A stretch of DNA of 34,722 nt from a virus. A program made the position numbers and the translations under genes. Position 1 is the stretch's first letter. Every line of letters begins with the position of its first letter. Of the stretch, positions 113 through 34,155 are shown piece after piece. Location of the stretch: IMG/VR virus record IMGVR_UViG_3300036772_000093, positions 1 to 34,722 of that record; one strand, given 5' to 3'. A model generated the notes under the pieces. That model ran no database searches. It saw nothing but the letters and a program-made list of their open reading frames with translations, and was not told the origin of the DNA.

Positions 113-140
113 ATTTAACATAATATAGCTTGCGCGAAGA
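113..140. other. Left prophage junction: hybrid dif-like att site
   Basis: Bases 113-123 (ATTTAACATAA) equal the XerD arm of dif. Bases 124-129 (TATAGC) take the place of the 6-bp central region, which is TATACA in the right copy. Bases 130-140 (TTGCGCGAAGA) match the XerC arm TTATGCGCACC at only 6 of 11 positions. This is the pattern expected when one half comes from the chromosome and the other from a phage site with a degenerate XerC arm. The similarity to the right copy also extends four bases leftward (GCTG) past one mismatch. Confidence 0.82.
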
Positions 141-174: not shown

Positions 175-480
175 ATGGTTAACAGTAACTTACAAATAAG
201 TGATAATCAGAGGGTAGGGGAGGCGCGCAAGGCGCTAAACCAAATTTTCCAAAAAGCTTATCAATCAGCAGCTAACGGCAAGCCTTTCGCATACATCATC
301 GACTATGGTTTTTTGCATGTTTCACATGACGAACTTTGCCGAGATACTCCTCGTTTAGTGCGTGATGTTCTGGTTGGCTTATTCCGATACAACATCAGGC
401 ACAAAATCACCTCGCGCGGGTTACGCGTATCTATCCCGAACTTTTGGACTCCTTCGCTTGATTCAAGGGGGAGAGCATGA
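175..480 (+). CDS. Hypothetical early phage protein (101 aa)
   Basis: I do not recognise this protein. It is the first gene inside the left junction and starts 15 bases after the palindromic operator at 140-159, so it is probably the first gene of an operon controlled there. The sequence is soluble, mildly basic and without membrane segments. The C-terminal half (residues 55-95) is rich in Arg and contains a 'RPRLVRDVLVGLFRYN'-like amphipathic stretch, which could bind nucleic acid, but no defined motif is visible. The stop codon overlaps the next start (ATGA at 477-480), indicating translational coupling. A small early regulatory role is only a guess. Confidence 0.7.
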   Translation: MVNSNLQISDNQRVGEARKALNQIFQKAYQSAANGKPFAYIIDYGFLHVSHDELCRDTPRLVRDVLVGLFRYNIRHKITSRGLRVSIPNFWTPSLDSRGRA

Positions 481-1022
481 GCGCCACGCCACTTAATACG
501 GACATCACAACGCAAGATATAGTTAACGTGATGCTGGGCCGCAAATTGCGCACGCTTGATGTCATTGCCGAGCTTGAAAACGAGTTTGGGGACTGTGACC
601 GCAAGCTAATTAGAAATCGCATAGACAACATGCGCGCATCTAAAAGCGTGGATATTGAAGTTATTGAAAAAGAAGACTGTGACGGCAGAGTCAAATACTG
701 GTATCTGAAGAGCGTCAGCAAATCTTATTTCCGCCAATCCTCACTAACTCGACATATGCGTCGGGGTCTGCCTGCAATAGTTAAGCAGCGCAAAAAACGT
801 GTCTATCCCCGTCCTAAATTCACCCCTGATGAAATTAATGCATGCAGATTAGCGAGGGCGGCGCACGTCTTGTGGTCTACGGGTGTTTGGGTTGCACCAA
901 AGCTGGTGTCAACAGGCAGAAAAGGCGACAAAAACAACGCGCAGCCCGTCACGGTGTATGCGCCGCGGTATTCAAACAATCATTTTTTTAATAATAGGGC
1001 TCCGCAATGGAACACAATTTAA
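477..1022 (+). CDS. Putative winged-helix-like early protein (181 aa)
   Basis: The gene begins in a 4-base ATGA overlap with the upstream gene. Residues 10-80 read like a small helical DNA-binding fold. A helix containing 'TLDVIAELENEFGD' is followed by a basic helix with 'RKLIRNRIDNMRA' and then by a two-strand wing-like segment ending in 'KYWYLKS'. The pattern is reminiscent of phage winged-helix proteins. Residues 90-140 are strongly basic (KQRKKRVYPRPKF). The C-terminus is low in recognisable structure. DNA binding is inferred from these features alone, and no family name can be assigned. The last bases overlap the following gene by 16. Confidence 0.65.
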   Translation: MSATPLNTDITTQDIVNVMLGRKLRTLDVIAELENEFGDCDRKLIRNRIDNMRASKSVDIEVIEKEDCDGRVKYWYLKSVSKSYFRQSSLTRHMRRGLPAIVKQRKKRVYPRPKFTPDEINACRLARAAHVLWSTGVWVAPKLVSTGRKGDKNNAQPVTVYAPRYSNNHFFNNRAPQWNTI

Positions 1023-1273
1023 AAATAGCACCTATTCATTTTGCACCGGTTGCAGATGGCCTGAAGCATGCAGAATTACGTATAAATGACCGTGATTATA
1101 AGTGCGGCGATAAAATAACCCTCAATGAATATCAGGGTGGATTCACGGGAGAGTTTGTTGACGTTGTTATCACGCATGTTGCGGACGTTGGCTCATTCGT
1201 TCCGGGGTATGTCTTATTAAGCATCGAATTGATAAATAAAGAAATAACAGGAGAAGCCACGCAAGGGGCTTAA
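1007..1273 (+). CDS. DUF3850 (ASCH/PUA-like) domain protein
   Basis: This 88-residue protein fits the DUF3850 family, which has a PUA/ASCH-like fold thought to bind RNA or modified nucleotides. The family signature is visible at residues 20-42. There, a Lys/His pair precedes 'ELRINDRDY', followed by a 'GD-I-L-EY' strand, and then 'GEFVDVVITHV' (48-58) forms the next strand. Many phages and prophages carry one such gene in the early region, but its function is not established. It overlaps the upstream gene by 16 bases and lies 5 bases before the next one, so it belongs to the early operon. Confidence 0.75.
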   Translation: MEHNLKIAPIHFAPVADGLKHAELRINDRDYKCGDKITLNEYQGGFTGEFVDVVITHVADVGSFVPGYVLLSIELINKEITGEATQGA

Positions 1274-1278
1274 ATAAA

Positions 1279-1572
1279 ATGAATACTGAGCAGCTAAAGC
1301 AGCACATTGAAGATACTGATGATACAGCGCTTGATTTACTGCTGGACGCAATGCCGCGCGGGGCAAGTCGCTTTGTTAGCATAACCAATAATCTCGCCAA
1401 ATATCTTGCAGAGGTAAAGCAGCATTACCCGGAAGCGCGGTTTTACACGTCTGGTGGTGATGGATTTGCGTTGATTCTGGGGGATACGCATAGCGGCAAA
1501 GGTGAAAACCCAAATAACGAGCTTATGGCAATTCAAGCGCCAAAATTGCGCGTCATGGGCGGGGACTGGTAA
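1279..1572 (+). CDS. Hypothetical early phage protein (97 aa)
   Basis: The protein is unrecognised. The first 30 residues are acidic and helical (a run of D, E and L). The middle holds 'SITNNLAKYLAEVKQHYPEARFY', a likely amphipathic helix, followed by a Gly-rich turn, 'TSGGDGFALIL'. There are no membrane segments, cysteines or known catalytic motifs. Its stop codon is directly followed by the start of the next gene at 1573, so the two are probably translated together. It is a member of the packed early operon 175-2737. Confidence 0.65.
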   Translation: MNTEQLKQHIEDTDDTALDLLLDAMPRGASRFVSITNNLAKYLAEVKQHYPEARFYTSGGDGFALILGDTHSGKGENPNNELMAIQAPKLRVMGGDW

Positions 1573-1770
1573 ATGACCAATAGCAACCTAACAGCTGGCT
1601 GGGCGCGGCCCCTTAATTCACGTAAGCACCACTTCTTCAAAGAGGGTGAGGCGGTAAGTATTTGCGGAAAGTGGATGCTGGTTAATCCGGTGAGGGAACC
1701 AGACACCTTTGAAAGTCCTGATGATTGCCTGGCTTGCCGCCGCAAACTTACTAAGGAGCAGGCCAAATGA
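1573..1770 (+). CDS. Small putative zinc-binding protein (65 aa)
   Basis: This short protein carries His19-His20, Cys31 and a Cys52-x-x-Cys55 pair, which could together hold one zinc ion. The arrangement HH...CGKW...CLAC resembles many tiny phage and prophage proteins that begin with a 'HYF...SLCG-W' block and end with a CxxC block. These are usually annotated as hypothetical. The gene starts immediately after the previous stop, and its own stop overlaps the next start (ATGA at 1767-1770). Zinc binding is inferred from the cysteine spacing. A role in binding nucleic acid is possible but not shown. Confidence 0.65.
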   Translation: MTNSNLTAGWARPLNSRKHHFFKEGEAVSICGKWMLVNPVREPDTFESPDDCLACRRKLTKEQAK

Positions 1771-2027
1771 TTAGCTCACTTGAAGAGCGTAAAAAAGGCG
1801 TGAATCTTTTAAGCGATGGCGCAACGTTCCGTATGCACGCCCGCCAGCTTATTTTATCCCGCAATGATATGGACATCGACTCAATGCGCGAAACCCTGGG
1901 CGATATCTTTGCTGGCTCGGATATCTCCCCGCAGTACGTCGAGCTTTTCAGGATGGTGTGTGACCTTGAATTTGTTGAGGCTGCTGGTTCAGCAATGGTC
2001 GATTGTTACTATTCGGGACGTGAATGA
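1767..2027 (+). CDS. Hypothetical early phage protein (86 aa)
   Basis: The protein is unrecognised. It is mostly helical and acidic, with a segment 'DIDSMRETLGDIFAGSDISP' that resembles a small protein-protein interaction domain. It lacks cysteine motifs and membrane segments. Both ends overlap neighbouring genes by 4 bases, so it is translationally coupled within the early operon. Its genuine coding status is supported by this tight packing rather than by similarity. Confidence 0.65.
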   Translation: MISSLEERKKGVNLLSDGATFRMHARQLILSRNDMDIDSMRETLGDIFAGSDISPQYVELFRMVCDLEFVEAAGSAMVDCYYSGRE

Positions 2028-2737
2028 TGACTGAATCGGTTATCAATTTCCGGTGTGACCGCGCCACACATGAGCGCGCTAAAGCGCGCTTGTCAGTGGG
2101 CGCGGTCAAGTTACCAGACATCCTGCGCCTTGCTGTTAAGTCTGTCGCTGACGATAGCGCCACGGTGCTTAATGAAGTGCTAAAAGAATGCGGTAAAGAG
2201 TATGCGGTCGGCATCAACTCTGCCTGGCTATATTACAAGGCGCATGAGCTTTTCACTTATGACGAGGGCGTCTTATATCGGAATAGTAACAAGGGCGCTG
2301 GTGTCCGTGGTGCTGCTGTTGACATTGTTAACCGGGCCGGGGTGTCATGCGTTGTAATTAATGGTGAATATTATCCGGTAAAAGATGTTATCTGGTTAAT
2401 GTTCTATGGCCATGTATCGGGCGATGTCGTTTGTGTGGAAGGTGATAGCCTTAAAATAAGCAATCTCATCGCGGAGGATGAGAGCGCACCTATAGCGAAA
2501 ATTGAACATAATATATCTAGCGAAGAGAAAGACTTAATTAAATCAGGAAAAATGCGGGCGCTAGTCATTGAGACTAACGAGAGCGAACGCAGGAAACGTG
2601 GTTGTGTTGAGCTCCTTTGTAATACCGGTGAAACATTCTATTTAATGTTGAGTGATGAAAAGGGCTGGTGTGGTACTCGCAGCGCAATACACGCACAGAG
2701 ATTAGAGTTAAATAAATTTGTAATTAGTATTTCATAG
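2024..2737 (+). CDS. Ribbon-helix-helix protein with degenerate HNH-like domain
   Basis: Residues 5-42 look like a ribbon-helix-helix DNA-binding domain of the DinJ/RelB kind: a strand 'VINFRCD', then 'HERAKARLSVGAV' and 'PDILRLAVKSVA'. Residues 75-150 follow the layout of phage HNH endonucleases: 'LFTYDEGVLYRN', a strand pair ending in 'VIWLMFYGHVSGD', then 'VEGDSLKISNL'. The usual catalytic His and Asn of the 'DHINGDxxDNRxxNL' block are replaced, and the His before the 'IW' motif is a Lys. Nuclease activity is therefore unlikely. Residues 160-237 are unassigned. The last gene of the early block, it ends inside operator 2. A DNA-binding regulator is the best guess. Confidence 0.6.
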   Translation: MMTESVINFRCDRATHERAKARLSVGAVKLPDILRLAVKSVADDSATVLNEVLKECGKEYAVGINSAWLYYKAHELFTYDEGVLYRNSNKGAGVRGAAVDIVNRAGVSCVVINGEYYPVKDVIWLMFYGHVSGDVVCVEGDSLKISNLIAEDESAPIAKIEHNISSEEKDLIKSGKMRALVIETNESERRKRGCVELLCNTGETFYLMLSDEKGWCGTRSAIHAQRLELNKFVISIS

Positions 2738-2754
2738 GGTAGAAAGCTACCCGT
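2737..2754. promoter_or_regulatory. Palindromic operator 2, upstream of the integrase operon
   Basis: GGGTA (2737-2741), six bases, then TACCC (2748-2752), followed by GT, repeat the half-sites and spacing of operator 1. It overlaps the stop codon of the upstream gene and lies 35 bases before the helix-turn-helix gene. A weak promoter-like pair, TTGTAA at 2718-2723 and TAGAAA at 2740-2745, would place the operator over the -10 element, but that promoter is tentative. Confidence 0.6.
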
Positions 2755-2788
2755 ACCGATTCATAATTGATAATATGGGGGTCTTCAG

Positions 2789-3070
2789 ATGGGGCTTCTT
2801 ACTATGATTAACGATGCTGTAAAAAAACTGCAAAAAGAAAAGCGCGTTTTGACGTTGGGTCAGCTTGTTGACGCTGTTTGCAGCGGTGACCTTCGCAACG
2901 AATGCGGGCTAGACCGTCACGCCTTCGCAGAGCTGGTGGGCTCAACTCGAAAAACAATCCGTGGCTATGAAGCATGGGAAGCCGCACCGCGCATGGGTGA
3001 CCTGTTTAATATTGCCACGTCTTTAAATATCAAGTTGCAGATGCCGGGGGCTCACGATGGAAGCAATTGA
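2789..3070 (+). CDS. Helix-turn-helix (XRE-like) regulator
   Basis: Residues 43-62 (HAFAELVGSTRKTIRGYEAW) read as a Cro/C1-type helix-turn-helix. They are followed by 'MGDLFNIATSLNIKL', which is how the end of XRE domains often looks. At 93 residues it is a single-domain protein without an oligomerisation or RecA-sensitive region. It is the first gene of the three-gene operon with the core-binding-domain protein and the integrase, overlapping the former by 14 bases. It lies just after operator 2, so it may regulate its own operon or the early genes. It is the clearest candidate for a lysogeny regulator, because no lambda-type CI is present. An alternative ATG at residue 6 is possible. Confidence 0.65.
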   Translation: MGLLTMINDAVKKLQKEKRVLTLGQLVDAVCSGDLRNECGLDRHAFAELVGSTRKTIRGYEAWEAAPRMGDLFNIATSLNIKLQMPGAHDGSN

Positions 3071-3407
3071 AGCCGAAACTGGAACCGGCACCGGGCTTGC
3101 AGCTGAAGTGTTGGCGATAGCTGAAGCGCGCGCGATAGCTGAAGGGCTGCAAAGCAATACGCTGTCAAGGCATCGAAGCGCAATTAATGCCCTGGCTGAT
3201 ACGCTAAACGGATCCGCCGTGCGTCTTGTGCGTCCGGGGCGCTGGGTGTCGCTGTATGCGCGGGAACCATCCACCAGCACGTTAACTTCTAATATGAAGT
3301 TTCTTGCATCGATTCTGGAATGGACGGAGTCGCAGGGCTACGAAAAGTCAGGCCAGTATATCCGCATTGCGCACGCAATCCGCCAGGCGTTAGCGGTGAA
3401 GGCATGA
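3057..3407 (+). CDS. Stand-alone integrase core-binding-domain-like protein
   Basis: This 116-residue protein resembles only the N-terminal DNA-binding (SAM-like, core-binding) part of the integrase encoded next to it. 'NTLSRHRSAI' (34-43) parallels 'DTITRECHAI' (22-31) of the integrase. 'STLTSNMKFLASILEWT' (74-90) parallels 'TTVRAELNYTAGVLEWT' (66-82), with similar distances between the two blocks and an 'AIRQAL' / 'AIRKTA' helix after them. It lacks a catalytic domain: there is no R, HxxR or Tyr motif. It overlaps the integrase start by 4 bases (ATGA), so the two are probably made together. It may be a partner subunit, a directionality factor or a competitor for the att site. A decayed duplication is the main alternative. 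Confidence 0.7.
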   Translation: MEAIEAETGTGTGLAAEVLAIAEARAIAEGLQSNTLSRHRSAINALADTLNGSAVRLVRPGRWVSLYAREPSTSTLTSNMKFLASILEWTESQGYEKSGQYIRIAHAIRQALAVKA

Positions 3408-4285
3408 TAACGGAGGTCTTACTCAGGATGGCAGAGCGGCGCGGCAAAGACCGCGCCTTGTGTCCTGACACAATTACCCGCGAATGCCACGCAATACGCA
3501 GCACTAACCCTGTGCTGCGTCTCGGCGTCCGTGCTGCGTCTCATCCTGATTACTGGAAGCGACACGCAGAAAACCGCATTAATGAAGGGCGCGCCGCTAC
3601 GACAGTCCGCGCCGAACTCAATTACACCGCAGGCGTGCTGGAGTGGACGGTTAAGGGCGATATTGACATGAAAGTCATGACGCCAGCGTCAGCGACGGCC
3701 ATTTCAAAAGCCATACGCAAGACAGCGCAACAGGTAAGTAAGCGGGTAAAAAGGTTTCCATCACTCGCCAAACCTGCGCGTGTCAGCATTGACGAATTTA
3801 GCCAGACAGCGCGCCAGATTGAGAGCATGAAGAGCCCGCACAGGGAGATTGGTAAGATGGCGTTATGCTTTGGTCTGCGTGCTACTGAAGCCGTATCGCT
3901 GCGTCAAAACTCATTGCTTGATAATGGGATGCTGTTTATTTCAGACAGAACAACGAAGACGCGCGCAAATTTATTACTGCCTGTACCGGTGAAATATATA
4001 AAGCAAATCAGGGGCTGGCTTGAAATTATTGAAGAGGCGAGCGTCAGTTATAGTGCTGTATATATGTACATTGGGCGAAAAGGTTTTGGTTGGTGCCTTC
4101 ATGACATGCGGAAAATGTTCCGAACAAAAGCCGCTGTGCGTGGCGAGGATTATTTAGCCGGTGAGTTAATTCTCAATCATGAAATTAAAGACGTGCCTAA
4201 TGTTTATTTGCAAAAGCCGCCGTACAAAAAAATGCGTGATGCTTTGTTGCATGCGCTAAAAGATTATGACGCCGCGCAAGGCTGA
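3404..4285 (+). CDS. int: Tyrosine recombinase (phage integrase)
   Basis: The catalytic set of tyrosine recombinases is visible in order: Arg159 in 'GLRATEAVSLR', Lys185 in 'TTKTR', His233-x-x-Arg236 in 'LHDMRKMFR', His259 in 'LILNHE' and the nucleophile Tyr268 in 'NVYLQ'. Residues 20-110 form the N-terminal core-binding domain, and no arm-binding domain is obvious. The 293-residue length is close to that of XerC/XerD. I start it at the ATG overlapping the upstream stop. The ATG at 3428, which follows GGAGG at 3412-3416, is an alternative giving 285 residues. A terminator follows. It should catalyse integration and excision at the dif-like att site, either alone or with host XerC/XerD; which of these applies is not decided by the sequence. 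Confidence 0.9.
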   Translation: MITEVLLRMAERRGKDRALCPDTITRECHAIRSTNPVLRLGVRAASHPDYWKRHAENRINEGRAATTVRAELNYTAGVLEWTVKGDIDMKVMTPASATAISKAIRKTAQQVSKRVKRFPSLAKPARVSIDEFSQTARQIESMKSPHREIGKMALCFGLRATEAVSLRQNSLLDNGMLFISDRTTKTRANLLLPVPVKYIKQIRGWLEIIEEASVSYSAVYMYIGRKGFGWCLHDMRKMFRTKAAVRGEDYLAGELILNHEIKDVPNVYLQKPPYKKMRDALLHALKDYDAAQG

Positions 4286-4316
4286 TTGCTGACCACAAAC
4301 ACTGCGTGACTTCCAG

Positions 4317-4338
4317 ACCGCCTCCGGGCGGTTTTTTT
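4317..4338 (+). terminator. Terminator after the integrase
   Basis: ACCGCC (4317-4322) and GGCGGT (4327-4332) form a GC-rich stem with a 4-base loop and are followed directly by seven T. It separates the integrase operon from the intergenic region and the late tail genes. Confidence 0.88.
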
Positions 4339-4723
4339 ATGCCTAAAAATCGGCCTGGATAATGTTAAGCAATTGTTGCTCGCAAACGAGCATAGCCTTG
4401 TTAAACGTAGTTAATAATCTGTTAAAAATGAGCGCTGTTGATAACTTTGTGTGAATCACGAAGCGAGAGAAAAGGGAATAGGAAACACAGGTCGCACGAT
4501 GAGAAACGGCGAAAAAATATATATTCAATATAAACAACAAGATAGGCTTGGCTGTCATTTTTTGAGTAATAAACGCCCGTTTTTGAAGCGTTATATTATT
4601 TTTTTCAGTCGGTTGGATTTTTAAAAGTATAAAGGGAGAAAATAACGCCAGAAAATTAGCGAGTTACAACGACGTTATATGTGGAGGGGGAACACTTAAC
4701 ACCTCTGAGCATGGTTAATATAC

Positions 4724-4739
4724 GGGTAAAAAAATACCC
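4724..4739. promoter_or_regulatory. Palindromic operator 3 in the intergenic region
   Basis: GGGTA (4724-4728), six A residues, and TACCC (4735-4739) match the core and spacing of the operators at 140 and 2737. The site lies 22 bases before a second inverted repeat at 4761-4781, so this may be a regulatory region. Confidence 0.55.
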
Positions 4740-4760
4740 ATAAAAGCGAGAGTATTAATA

Positions 4761-4781
4761 AATGTAACCTGCACTTACATT
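4761..4781. repeat. Inverted repeat AATGTAA-N7-TTACATT
   Basis: Arms of 7 bases at 4761-4767 and 4775-4781 are perfect reverse complements. The 7-base gap and lack of a T-run make it look more like an operator than a terminator. The cognate protein is unknown. Confidence 0.4.
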
Positions 4782-5166
4782 CTCGGTTAGTGCTGGGCGC
4801 GCCAATCCACCAACAAAATCCAACTAAATCATAGATATATAAAAACAAAGCCATGAATCGCACCAGAATCAGCCCGTAAATATTACGGCGCAGTGGTCAA
4901 ACCAGTCATTTGGCTCCGTTGACATGGAAATTAATCGAGCACCGGTGAGTGCGAAGCAGGTGTGAGGAGCGAGCTCTTCAGGTATTTATTTTGGCCCGTG
5001 TTTGTTTCAGGCCTTATGTCATGGGCATTGGCTGGGATGCGCATATTTATTCAAATGGGAACACGGAGAGAATATTACCCGCATGGCTTTGTAACAGTTT
5101 TTAGGCACAGACAAGGAAGGGGTCGTGACGGCTAATTTGAGTGTGTGAGAGTTGGCACGATTATTA

Positions 5167-5262
5167 ATATCCACAGGGCGTGCCAGTATTCATGCGGCTT
5201 TGCGTGGGGTTGACGAAAGGAGAAAAATAAGCAGGTAGGGTGAAATCAGCCATTTATCCACA
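5167..5262 (+). other. Two DnaA-box-like sites
   Basis: TTATCCACA at 5254-5262 is a perfect consensus DnaA box, and ATATCCACA at 5167-5175 differs by one base. Both lie in the AT-rich intergenic region of a phage that shows no replication initiator gene. Whether they act as an origin is speculative; two boxes can occur by chance. Confidence 0.3.
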
Positions 5263-5353
5263 GCCAGCCTATTTTGTGTCTTGTCGTGCTTCACCTGACG
5301 GCCTCACATGATGATGTTGTGATTGCTCCGACTATATAAAGGAGTAAATGCAA

Positions 5354-6295
5354 ATGGCCTGGGGGCGAATTTTTCAAATCATCATTAATTGCACAACGGG
5401 CGAGAGCATCACGATTAATGATGCTGACTGTGACTTTTCCTGCGTGCGTGACAACGCGAAAGAACCGAACGAGGCGGAGTTAACGCTCTGGGGGATTTCA
5501 GCCAATACACAAAACCAGATAGCCGTTTCAGGAAGCACTTTAAGCATTGCGGCGGGTTACCGTGATGAGGGGTTGTTGACACTTTTTCAGGGGGAACTGA
5601 TAGCCGCAGTTACTGTCAAGCCTGCGGAAGTCTACGGGCTAAAAATCAAAATCTATGAATCGCTTATCCCGTTCCGGGCATCAGTAACAAAGCGGTCATT
5701 TAAGAAGGGTCAAAGGCTGGTCGAGGCGGTCAGGCTTGTTGCCGCAGATATGGGGTTGGGTTGTCGCTTATCCAGCGGGGCTGAAGCGTTGACGCTGGAT
5801 AAGCCGGTGTCGGGTGTGGCTCTTTCGCGCGACGTGCTTAACAGCTTGTGCAAACCTGTTAATGCCACATGGTCTATTCAGTATCAATCCCTGATGGTGA
5901 CAGCTGGTGATTCCATGACAACCGGCTCCGCGCTGTTCTCCCCGGACAGCGGGCTGATTGGCGCGCCAACACTGAAGCTACATACCCCGAAGCGCCATAA
6001 GAAAGGCAAAACCACTGCGAGCAAAAAGAAGAAGCATTCCGTCGCTACTTACCCGTGGCCTCCTAAAAACTCCCATACCGATTACACAAAGGGTGCGCGC
6101 CGCCAGATTGGCACAGTTGAGGGCATTAACTGGCGTTCCGTGCTGCGTGGCGGCGTTGAAGTTGGCGACAAGGTGCAGCTCGAGTCACCGTCTTTGGGGC
6201 AGGGCTGGTGGGTCACCGTCACGAAAATTACGCACCGTTTCGGCACGCAGGATTTAAGCGTCTGGGAATCGCAGTTTGAAGGGGTCATTGAATGA
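5354..6295 (+). CDS. Putative baseplate hub protein
   Basis: The protein of about 313 residues precedes the spike gene, with which it overlaps by 4 bases. That is the position of the hub in contractile-tail phages (T4 gp27 or Mu gp44 role). The N-terminal half is beta-rich, with a 'LTLWGISANTQNQI' segment and 'LFQGELIAA', as in hub proteins that trimerise beneath the tail tube. Residues 225-240 form a strongly basic linker (repeated KK) before a C-terminal OB-like part, 'VGDKVQLESPSLGQGWW'. I prefer the ATG at 5354, nine bases after AAGGAG, over the ATG at 5348. It is the first gene of the tail block after the intergenic region. The hub assignment rests on position and general pattern. Confidence 0.7.
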   Translation: MAWGRIFQIIINCTTGESITINDADCDFSCVRDNAKEPNEAELTLWGISANTQNQIAVSGSTLSIAAGYRDEGLLTLFQGELIAAVTVKPAEVYGLKIKIYESLIPFRASVTKRSFKKGQRLVEAVRLVAADMGLGCRLSSGAEALTLDKPVSGVALSRDVLNSLCKPVNATWSIQYQSLMVTAGDSMTTGSALFSPDSGLIGAPTLKLHTPKRHKKGKTTASKKKKHSVATYPWPPKNSHTDYTKGARRQIGTVEGINWRSVLRGGVEVGDKVQLESPSLGQGWWVTVTKITHRFGTQDLSVWESQFEGVIE

Positions 6296-33255: not shown

Positions 33256-33594
33256 TTGATAGTTAAATACTACGAAACGGAAGACGGTGACATCCCGCTT
33301 GAGAAGTGGCTGACAAAGAACAAGGCCGCAATGGCCAAAGTTTTTGCAGTCACACAACGGCTTAAGGACGGGAATATGTCGTCAGTGAAATGGTTGTCAG
33401 GGCGTCCGGGCATTGGTGAGTATCGCGTTAACTGGGGTGCCGGTCTGAGGGTTTACCTGATGCAGGACGGCGATGAAATCGTGATTTTACTCTGTGCCGG
33501 TTTTAAAGACAGTCAGGACAAAGATTTAGCCAGGGCGGAGAGTTTCCGGGCAGACTATTTAAGAGGTAAAAAATATGCCAGCGGTAGACATTGA
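33256..33594 (+). CDS. Type II toxin, RelE/HigB-like (HI1419 family)
   Basis: The 112-residue protein matches the addiction module killer family exemplified by Haemophilus HI1419. The signatures are 'PLEKWL' (14-19), 'GEYRVNWGAGLRVYLMQDGD' (54-73) and 'LLCAGFKDSQDKDLARA' (78-94). Members of the RelE superfamily usually cleave mRNA on the ribosome. It starts with TTG, six bases after AAGGAGG. It precedes its antitoxin, overlapping it by 20 bases. The location next to the right attachment site suggests stabilisation of the prophage. Confidence 0.9.
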   Translation: MIVKYYETEDGDIPLEKWLTKNKAAMAKVFAVTQRLKDGNMSSVKWLSGRPGIGEYRVNWGAGLRVYLMQDGDEIVILLCAGFKDSQDKDLARAESFRADYLRGKKYASGRH

Positions 33595-33871
33595 TGTTAT
33601 GTGGTCGAGGCTCCTTAAGGAGGATCCAGGCTCACGCAAAGCGATACTTGAAGAGATTCACGAACTCATCAGAGACGGTGAGATAGAAACGGCAAAAGGC
33701 ATGCTGCGCACGCTCATAAAGGCAACGTGCGGTTTTCCTGCAATTTCAAATGAGATTGGCCGCAACTCAAAATCAATCATGCGCATGCTGTCGCCAGATG
33801 TTGACCCCGGCGTTAAGGCATTTATGGCCGTAGTGAAAGCCGCAGAGCGTCAATCACTGAAGATGTTGTGA
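33575..33871 (+). CDS. Type II antitoxin with helix-turn-helix (HI1420 family)
   Basis: The 98-residue protein is encoded after the toxin, in the order known for the HI1419/HI1420 pair. Residues 54-72 ('FPAISNEIGRNSKSIMRML') form a helix-turn-helix, as in that antitoxin family. It should neutralise the toxin and, with it, repress the palindromic promoter at 33203-33235. The N-terminal 45 residues, probably helical, are longer than in the shortest members of the family. A terminator follows 60 bases downstream. Confidence 0.82.
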   Translation: MPAVDIDVMWSRLLKEDPGSRKAILEEIHELIRDGEIETAKGMLRTLIKATCGFPAISNEIGRNSKSIMRMLSPDVDPGVKAFMAVVKAAERQSLKML

Positions 33872-34127: not shown

Positions 34128-34155
34128 ATTTAACATAATATACATTATGCGCACC
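34128..34155 (-). other. dif: Chromosomal dimer-resolution site dif (right prophage junction)
   Basis: Read left to right, the site is the XerD arm ATTTAACATAA (34128-34138), central TATACA (34139-34144) and XerC arm TTATGCGCACC (34145-34155). The reverse complement equals the E. coli dif sequence as I know it. XerC and XerD recombine here under FtsK control to resolve chromosome dimers. The first 15 bases are repeated at 113-127. The prophage thus supplies the XerD half of this site, and dif stays intact after integration. Confidence 0.92.

Follow-up and report, generated by a model that had tools for sequence, protein, structure and literature searches.

A stand-alone core-binding-domain protein encoded with the integrase of phages inserted at dif

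In what way phages inserted at dif live alongside the XerCD system of chromosome-dimer resolution, or make use of it, is the question raised by a short gene that adjoins the integrase gene of a viral contig. This contig, referred to here as the window and analysed over its whole length of 34,722 bases, consists of a prophage with short host DNA at both ends. The original prediction described the 116-aa product of the short gene, for which we coined the name CbX, as a stand-alone core-binding (CB) domain co-translated with the integrase, which might occupy one arm of a dif-like att site, act as a directionality factor or block XerC or XerD.

Counted from attL, the window encodes proteins of 101 and 181 aa, small ORFs, a 237-aa protein, a helix-turn-helix (HTH) protein, CbX and the integrase, followed by a hairpin; the features for which coordinates are given in this paragraph lie on the + strand. 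The 237-aa protein (2024..2737) has a weak match to HNH nucleases (phrog_99, E = 1e-4) and belongs to a conserved gene block, with homologues at the equivalent place in L002, L003, L006 and L028. The 93-aa HTH protein (2789..3070; PF01381, E = 2.4e-6) is conserved in relatives, and the end of its ORF shares 14 bp with the beginning of CbX. CbX (3057..3407) was assigned on the grounds of homology, fold and selection, whereas the 293-aa tyrosine integrase (3404..4285) was assigned by its match to phrog_1 (E = 2.2e-10), its fold matches and its invariant residues. The ATG at 3404 was taken as the integrase start because the relatives begin at its equivalent, although the reading frame could be extended back to 3320. 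A terminator-like hairpin at 4315..4334, predicted by consensus scan only, would end an HTH-CbX-integrase operon.

Relationship of CbX to the integrase

Comparison of the two window proteins by BLASTP aligned CbX residues 18-90 with integrase residues 6-82 (E = 0.002). Both sequence blocks originally reported as shared by the two proteins are contained in this alignment, the range of which adds the N-terminal helix (VLAIAEARAIAEGL in CbX / LLRMAERRGKDRAL in the integrase). The profile-profile P value dropped as more relatives were included, from 0.0015 with four sequences of each family to 1.4e-5 with five of each, 3.4e-7 with 16 and 18 sequences, and 2.1e-8 with 18 of each and the CB part only. 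When CbX was aligned to the integrase CB domain by hhalign, a score of 51.0 was obtained, the maximum for 100 column-shuffled CbX alignments being 20.4. In addition, the HMM of either family retrieves the other among the ORFs of the locus (CbX HMM to the window integrase, E = 1.9e-8), and the aligned range of about 98 columns covers the entire CB domain. Neither XerC and XerD from Buttiauxella genomes nor arm-type phage integrases showed comparable similarity to CbX, so that, of the proteins compared, the integrase of the same lineage supplies the nearest relative found, in its CB domain. As originally noted, a catalytic domain is missing from the small protein: CbX stops after CB helix E in all relatives and has no domain with the nucleophilic tyrosine. 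These alignments, together with the fold model and the conservation described below, show CbX to be a duplicated CB domain of the lineage's own integrase, kept as a separate, catalysis-free protein.

The protein is not covered by the family collections searched. No meaningful family was returned for CbX by Pfam, NCBIfam or PADLOC, and no match was obtained in phage and plasmid records; a sequence search of the PDB gave chance matches only. The window CbX has no match in PHROGs, and its homologue in L045 weakly matches the CB part of phrog_1 (E = 0.047).

The AlphaFold (AF2) model of CbX, built with 16 relatives, is all helical (pLDDT 84.5, pTM 0.79). Plain Foldseek gave weak matches to this model, with E of 1 or more. 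The best 14 matches found by VIA-align, however, are all tyrosine-recombinase or integrase-like domains with Z from 9.1 to 7.5, among them lambda Int (9.1), XerA (8.0), XerD (7.6), Tn1549 Int and isolated integrase CB domains. Helical bundles often give middling Z values, and the case for the fold consequently rests on the agreement of this match list with the sequence result. Structure prediction had been named as the check on the CB assignment, and the model does have a CB fold like that of solved tyrosine-recombinase CB domains.

The integrase model comprises a CB part (residues about 1-112) and a catalytic domain (about 129-288) resembling the SSV1, P2 and lambda integrases; the Z values were 14.0 for the SSV1 Int catalytic domain, 13.7 for the XerA-like structure 4a8e and 12.4 for lambda Int. 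Residues R159, K185, H233, R236, H259 and Y268 are invariant in 18 relatives. The protein begins straight at the CB domain and has no arm-binding domain. A split integrase, with CbX as the missing N-terminal arm domain, was considered and rejected, since the part to which CbX aligns, the CB domain, is complete in the integrase; in single-chain relatives of about 420 aa, the N-terminal domain differs from CbX.

Conservation and spacing of the two genes

Relatives were collected from viral contigs scanned with both families, from the genome of Buttiauxella sp. B2, from another genome belonging to that genus group and from E. coli CX12. CbX and the integrase occur together in all 31 of the 31 records with enough upstream DNA, some of which are nearly identical to one another; the integrase records L090 and L092, which end before the expected place of CbX, were left out of the count. 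Conservation of the pair in other prophages at dif had been proposed as a further check, and CbX was always found with the integrase in such prophages, no relative with enough upstream sequence lacking the small gene. One apparent CbX-less record, L107, was rejected as such because it does have CbX, separated from the integrase by about 5.1 kb of upstream DNA with cargo genes. Three weak genome matches were discarded: no integrase-like ORF is present in the L015 stretch of G220, and those in G292 and G089 have stop codons. Among the sampled Enterobacterales and Gammaproteobacteria genomes, a real match was obtained in the known carrier only, the family being rare outside the group.

The dN/dS of CbX (0.02-0.23) indicates purifying selection. 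The distance matrices of CbX and the integrase are correlated with r = 0.94, a value reached in none of 2000 permutations. As none of the phages open to this check has lost CbX, the protein probably serves a distinct function in recombination or in the control of recombination.

The spacing of the two genes proved less constant than their association. The predicted 4-base overlap is present as ATGA at 3404-3407 and recurs in three close relatives of the window. Co-translation, as originally proposed, cannot be extended to the family, as the overlap is limited to the window's clade: elsewhere the two genes are separated by 0 or 2 bp, by 0.8 to 1.7 kb of variable genes, or by about 5.1 kb. What is conserved is the presence of both genes in the same order, not their overlap or co-translation. 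The gap is a variable cargo site, with stretches at L028 8657-9364, L037 3781-4311, L050 3715-5396 and L118 about 474-5568, in which Ead/Ea22-like proteins, a C-5 cytosine DNA methylase (L118 4117-4794) and unknown ORFs are encoded.

Within CbX, the start of helix D (STSTxxSNMKF) has an entropy of 0.29 bits, the lowest of any segment, and helix E is also well kept. In the integrase, helix D (0.70 bits) and helix B (0.98 bits, with no invariant residue) are both less conserved than this segment. Helix D of CbX is presumed to be the DNA-recognition helix, and its constancy suggests a constant target. The pI of CbX counts against a DNA-binding accessory, being less basic in the window clade (6.7-9.5) than in the rest of the family (9.5-10.4).

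Attachment sites at dif

The dif-like att site proposed for this phage is real: an exact enterobacterial dif is present at 34128-34155, together with a 15-bp core repeat at 113-127. The attL core (113..127, + strand) consists of the XerD arm of dif (ATTTAACATAA) and TATA of the central region, repeats 34128-34142 exactly over 15 bp, and has the start of the phage to its right. The XerC arm is replaced there by a phage arm (TTGCGCGAAGA; 130..140, + strand) that is not conserved among related phages. At attR (34128..34155, - strand) the complete enterobacterial dif (GGTGCGCATAATGTATATTATGTTAAAT) is found as an exact match, obtained in none of 100 shuffles, with host DNA beyond. Many records show the same layout, with a complete or near-complete dif at the right junction and the XerD arm at the left, and every junction that could be read is at dif. 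In E. coli CX12, for which the whole chromosome is available, both junctions were found near hipBA. From this layout it follows that attP carries the XerD arm and central bases, with its own sequence on the other side.

The two halves of the site differ strikingly in conservation. In 21 pairs with integrase CB domains at least 90% identical, identity amounts to 100% over the XerD arm and to 34%, which is chance level, over the nine outer bases of the opposite arm; judging from this value, the integrase probably does not recognise the second (phage) arm specifically. The central bases read TATAGC in the window clade and in L035, versus TATACA elsewhere. The constant target at hand for the recognition helix of CbX would then be the XerD half-site.

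With up to one mismatch allowed, the XerD arm occurs in a 49-kb stretch of E. coli CX12 at the two att sites only; the window holds one exact extra copy and one with a single mismatch. Repeats of core-type sites were sought near the window att arms and not found. In the main clade, although not in the window, the phage side of attR (L074-L084, L110, L113, L114 and L071) has a conserved block, AACAAGCGG..TTAC..CGTT, which precedes the XerD arm by about 10-30 bp and represents a candidate accessory site.

In the window, about 47 bp separate the attL core from the first phage gene downstream of it, and a short dyad (gggtagaaatttaccc in the window; region 113-175) lies between the two. The same arrangement is seen in L028, L029, L071, L072, L073, L085 and L115. 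Given this position of the core, integration could alter the promoter or leader of the first operon.

The E. coli CX12 prophage encodes, among its head genes, a protein annotated as belonging to the anti-CBASS Acb1 family (L071 25429-26802). Beyond attL in the same chromosome (L071 46536-49001), further integrase genes are present, one short ORF lying beside an IS1 copy; dif in this strain seems to hold more than one element.

Possible roles of CbX

The reading that we favour, with about even confidence, is that CbX is a catalysis-free, sequence-specific DNA-binding accessory subunit of dif integration, most likely bound at the constant half-site, where it would load, direct or restrain recombination. 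The constant half of the recombining site, shared by dif, attP, attL and attR, is made up of the XerD arm and the central bases beside it, and the phage half has no conserved sequence. The invariant recognition helix of CbX would bind the constant half-site, or a constant site adjoining it, while the helices for CB-CB contact would touch the integrase or a Xer protein. Since attP has no second specific arm, CbX might in this way assist in loading the integrase there, or it might set the direction of the reaction by displacing XerD or the integrase. Of the functions originally envisaged, occupation of one att arm by CbX may be favoured, because one half-site and the recognition helix of CbX are both constant.

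The subunits of tyrosine recombinases are linked through their catalytic domains, and a C-terminal segment is exchanged between them in the synapse. As a CB-only subunit can neither donate nor accept this segment, CbX is not an ordinary member of the tetramer or synapse, and it is more likely to load, block or bend than to be a catalytic partner. Further points weigh against the accessory reading: the constancy of the XerD arm may reflect nothing more than that of dif, the module has other small DNA-binding proteins, such as the HTH protein at 2789, that are possible directionality factors or regulators, and the solo CB domains known elsewhere (ALOG) regulate transcription. In a more specific and more tentative form of the accessory reading, CbX acts as a half recombinase, recognising one dif/att half-site in trans and deciding assembly or direction together with an intact integrase for which the opposite half offers no specific site, perhaps with host XerD as well. 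If this were true, two proteins would divide the work between them in a way that has not been described for phage integrases.

It is also possible, if on balance unlikely, that CbX is a transcription regulator derived from a recombinase DNA-binding domain, which binds early-operon operators and controls integrase expression or lysogeny. Precedents exist in the plant ALOG proteins, which are solo CB domains (PMC3537659), and in the dead recombinase MrpR/YopR (PMC10516654); moreover, CbX sits in an operon behind an HTH regulator, and binding to the att core, so close to the first phage gene, could regulate the operon too. However, no repeated XerD-arm-like operators occur elsewhere in CX12, the two extra copies in the window notwithstanding, and CbX is strictly linked to the dif integrase, not to structural or replication genes.

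We regard as unlikely an action on the host Xer proteins, whereby CbX would compete with XerC or XerD at dif, attL or attR against Xer/FtsK-driven loss of the prophage, or activate XerD as XafT of TLCphi does. The presence of the XerD arm at both junctions, with a complete dif at attR, the similarity of the CbX fold to XerD and the precedent of a phage-encoded XerD activator (XafT, as cited in PMC9765430) are all consistent with it. Nevertheless, these phages have their own complete integrase, CbX has no sequence similarity to XerC or XerD, and XerCD-driven excision should already be poor at an attL that lacks the XerC arm.

That CbX replaces the missing arm-binding domain in trans, binding phage arm DNA outside the core and delivering the integrase by contact, appears improbable. 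It would account for an integrase devoid of the N-terminal domain of arm-type integrases, and its sites could be the AACAAGCGG..TTAC blocks that main-clade phages have next to the XerD arm in the phage DNA, but these blocks are not common to the window clade and CbX matches a CB domain rather than an arm-binding one. Finally, a functionless remnant of an integrase duplication is scarcely credible: CbX is indeed a partial paralogue, yet purifying selection, its retention in every countable record including those where cargo separates the genes, and the conserved recognition helix all contradict this.

The accessory subunit that we favour has partial counterparts among known systems. The statement that no phage system of this kind has been described stands in so far as no phage CB-only partner of an intact integrase was found described in our incomplete coverage of the literature; it needs qualification in that solo CB domains are known from plants and a recombinase-fold repressor from phages. 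The ALOG (LSH/G1) family consists, like CbX, of stand-alone tyrosine-recombinase CB domains without a catalytic domain, kept as DNA-binding proteins (PMC3537659), but these are eukaryotic transcription regulators that are not found beside an active integrase and have no described recombination role. Their zinc-ribbon insert is absent from the CbX family, and the window CbX has no cysteine. MrpR/YopR of SPbeta, a repressor built on a dead recombinase fold, and SroF of phi3T (for the two together, PMC10516654; PDB 9rd5, 9rgl) are phage proteins of tyrosine-recombinase descent that bind DNA without recombining it; they are, however, master repressors composed of a CB and a degenerate catalytic domain, whereas CbX is CB only and tied to an intact dif integrase.

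IMEX elements (CTXphi, VGJphi, TLCphi, GGI, LME-1) insert at dif by means of a partial dif copy, a mode of insertion that all readable junctions show for the present phages as well, but they use host XerCD for recombination (PMC9765430, PMC5357621), while these phages encode a complete integrase. TLCphi encodes a factor acting on XerD, the activator XafT (cited in PMC9765430). An attP of the TLCphi type was rejected for the window phage, since TLCphi diverges on the XerD side (PMC5357621) and the divergence here is on the XerC side.

The integrase itself resembles the simple integrases Brujita Int, XerA and Cre, which consist of a CB and a catalytic domain without an arm-binding domain. To our knowledge, none of these is made together with a separate CB-only paralogue. 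A conserved CB-only partner offers a compact system in which half-site choice, and directionality in the absence of a classical arm-binding domain, can be tested, and a phage case would join the few known reuses of a recombinase DNA-binding domain on its own.

The phage group of the window appears to be undescribed: in a search with 24 kb, deposited phages showed almost no nucleotide similarity to the window phage, a short tail-fibre assembly stretch only being shared. Near the right end of the window (33256-33871), two adjacent ORFs resemble, by eye only, a RelE/HigB-type toxin and an antitoxin-like partner.
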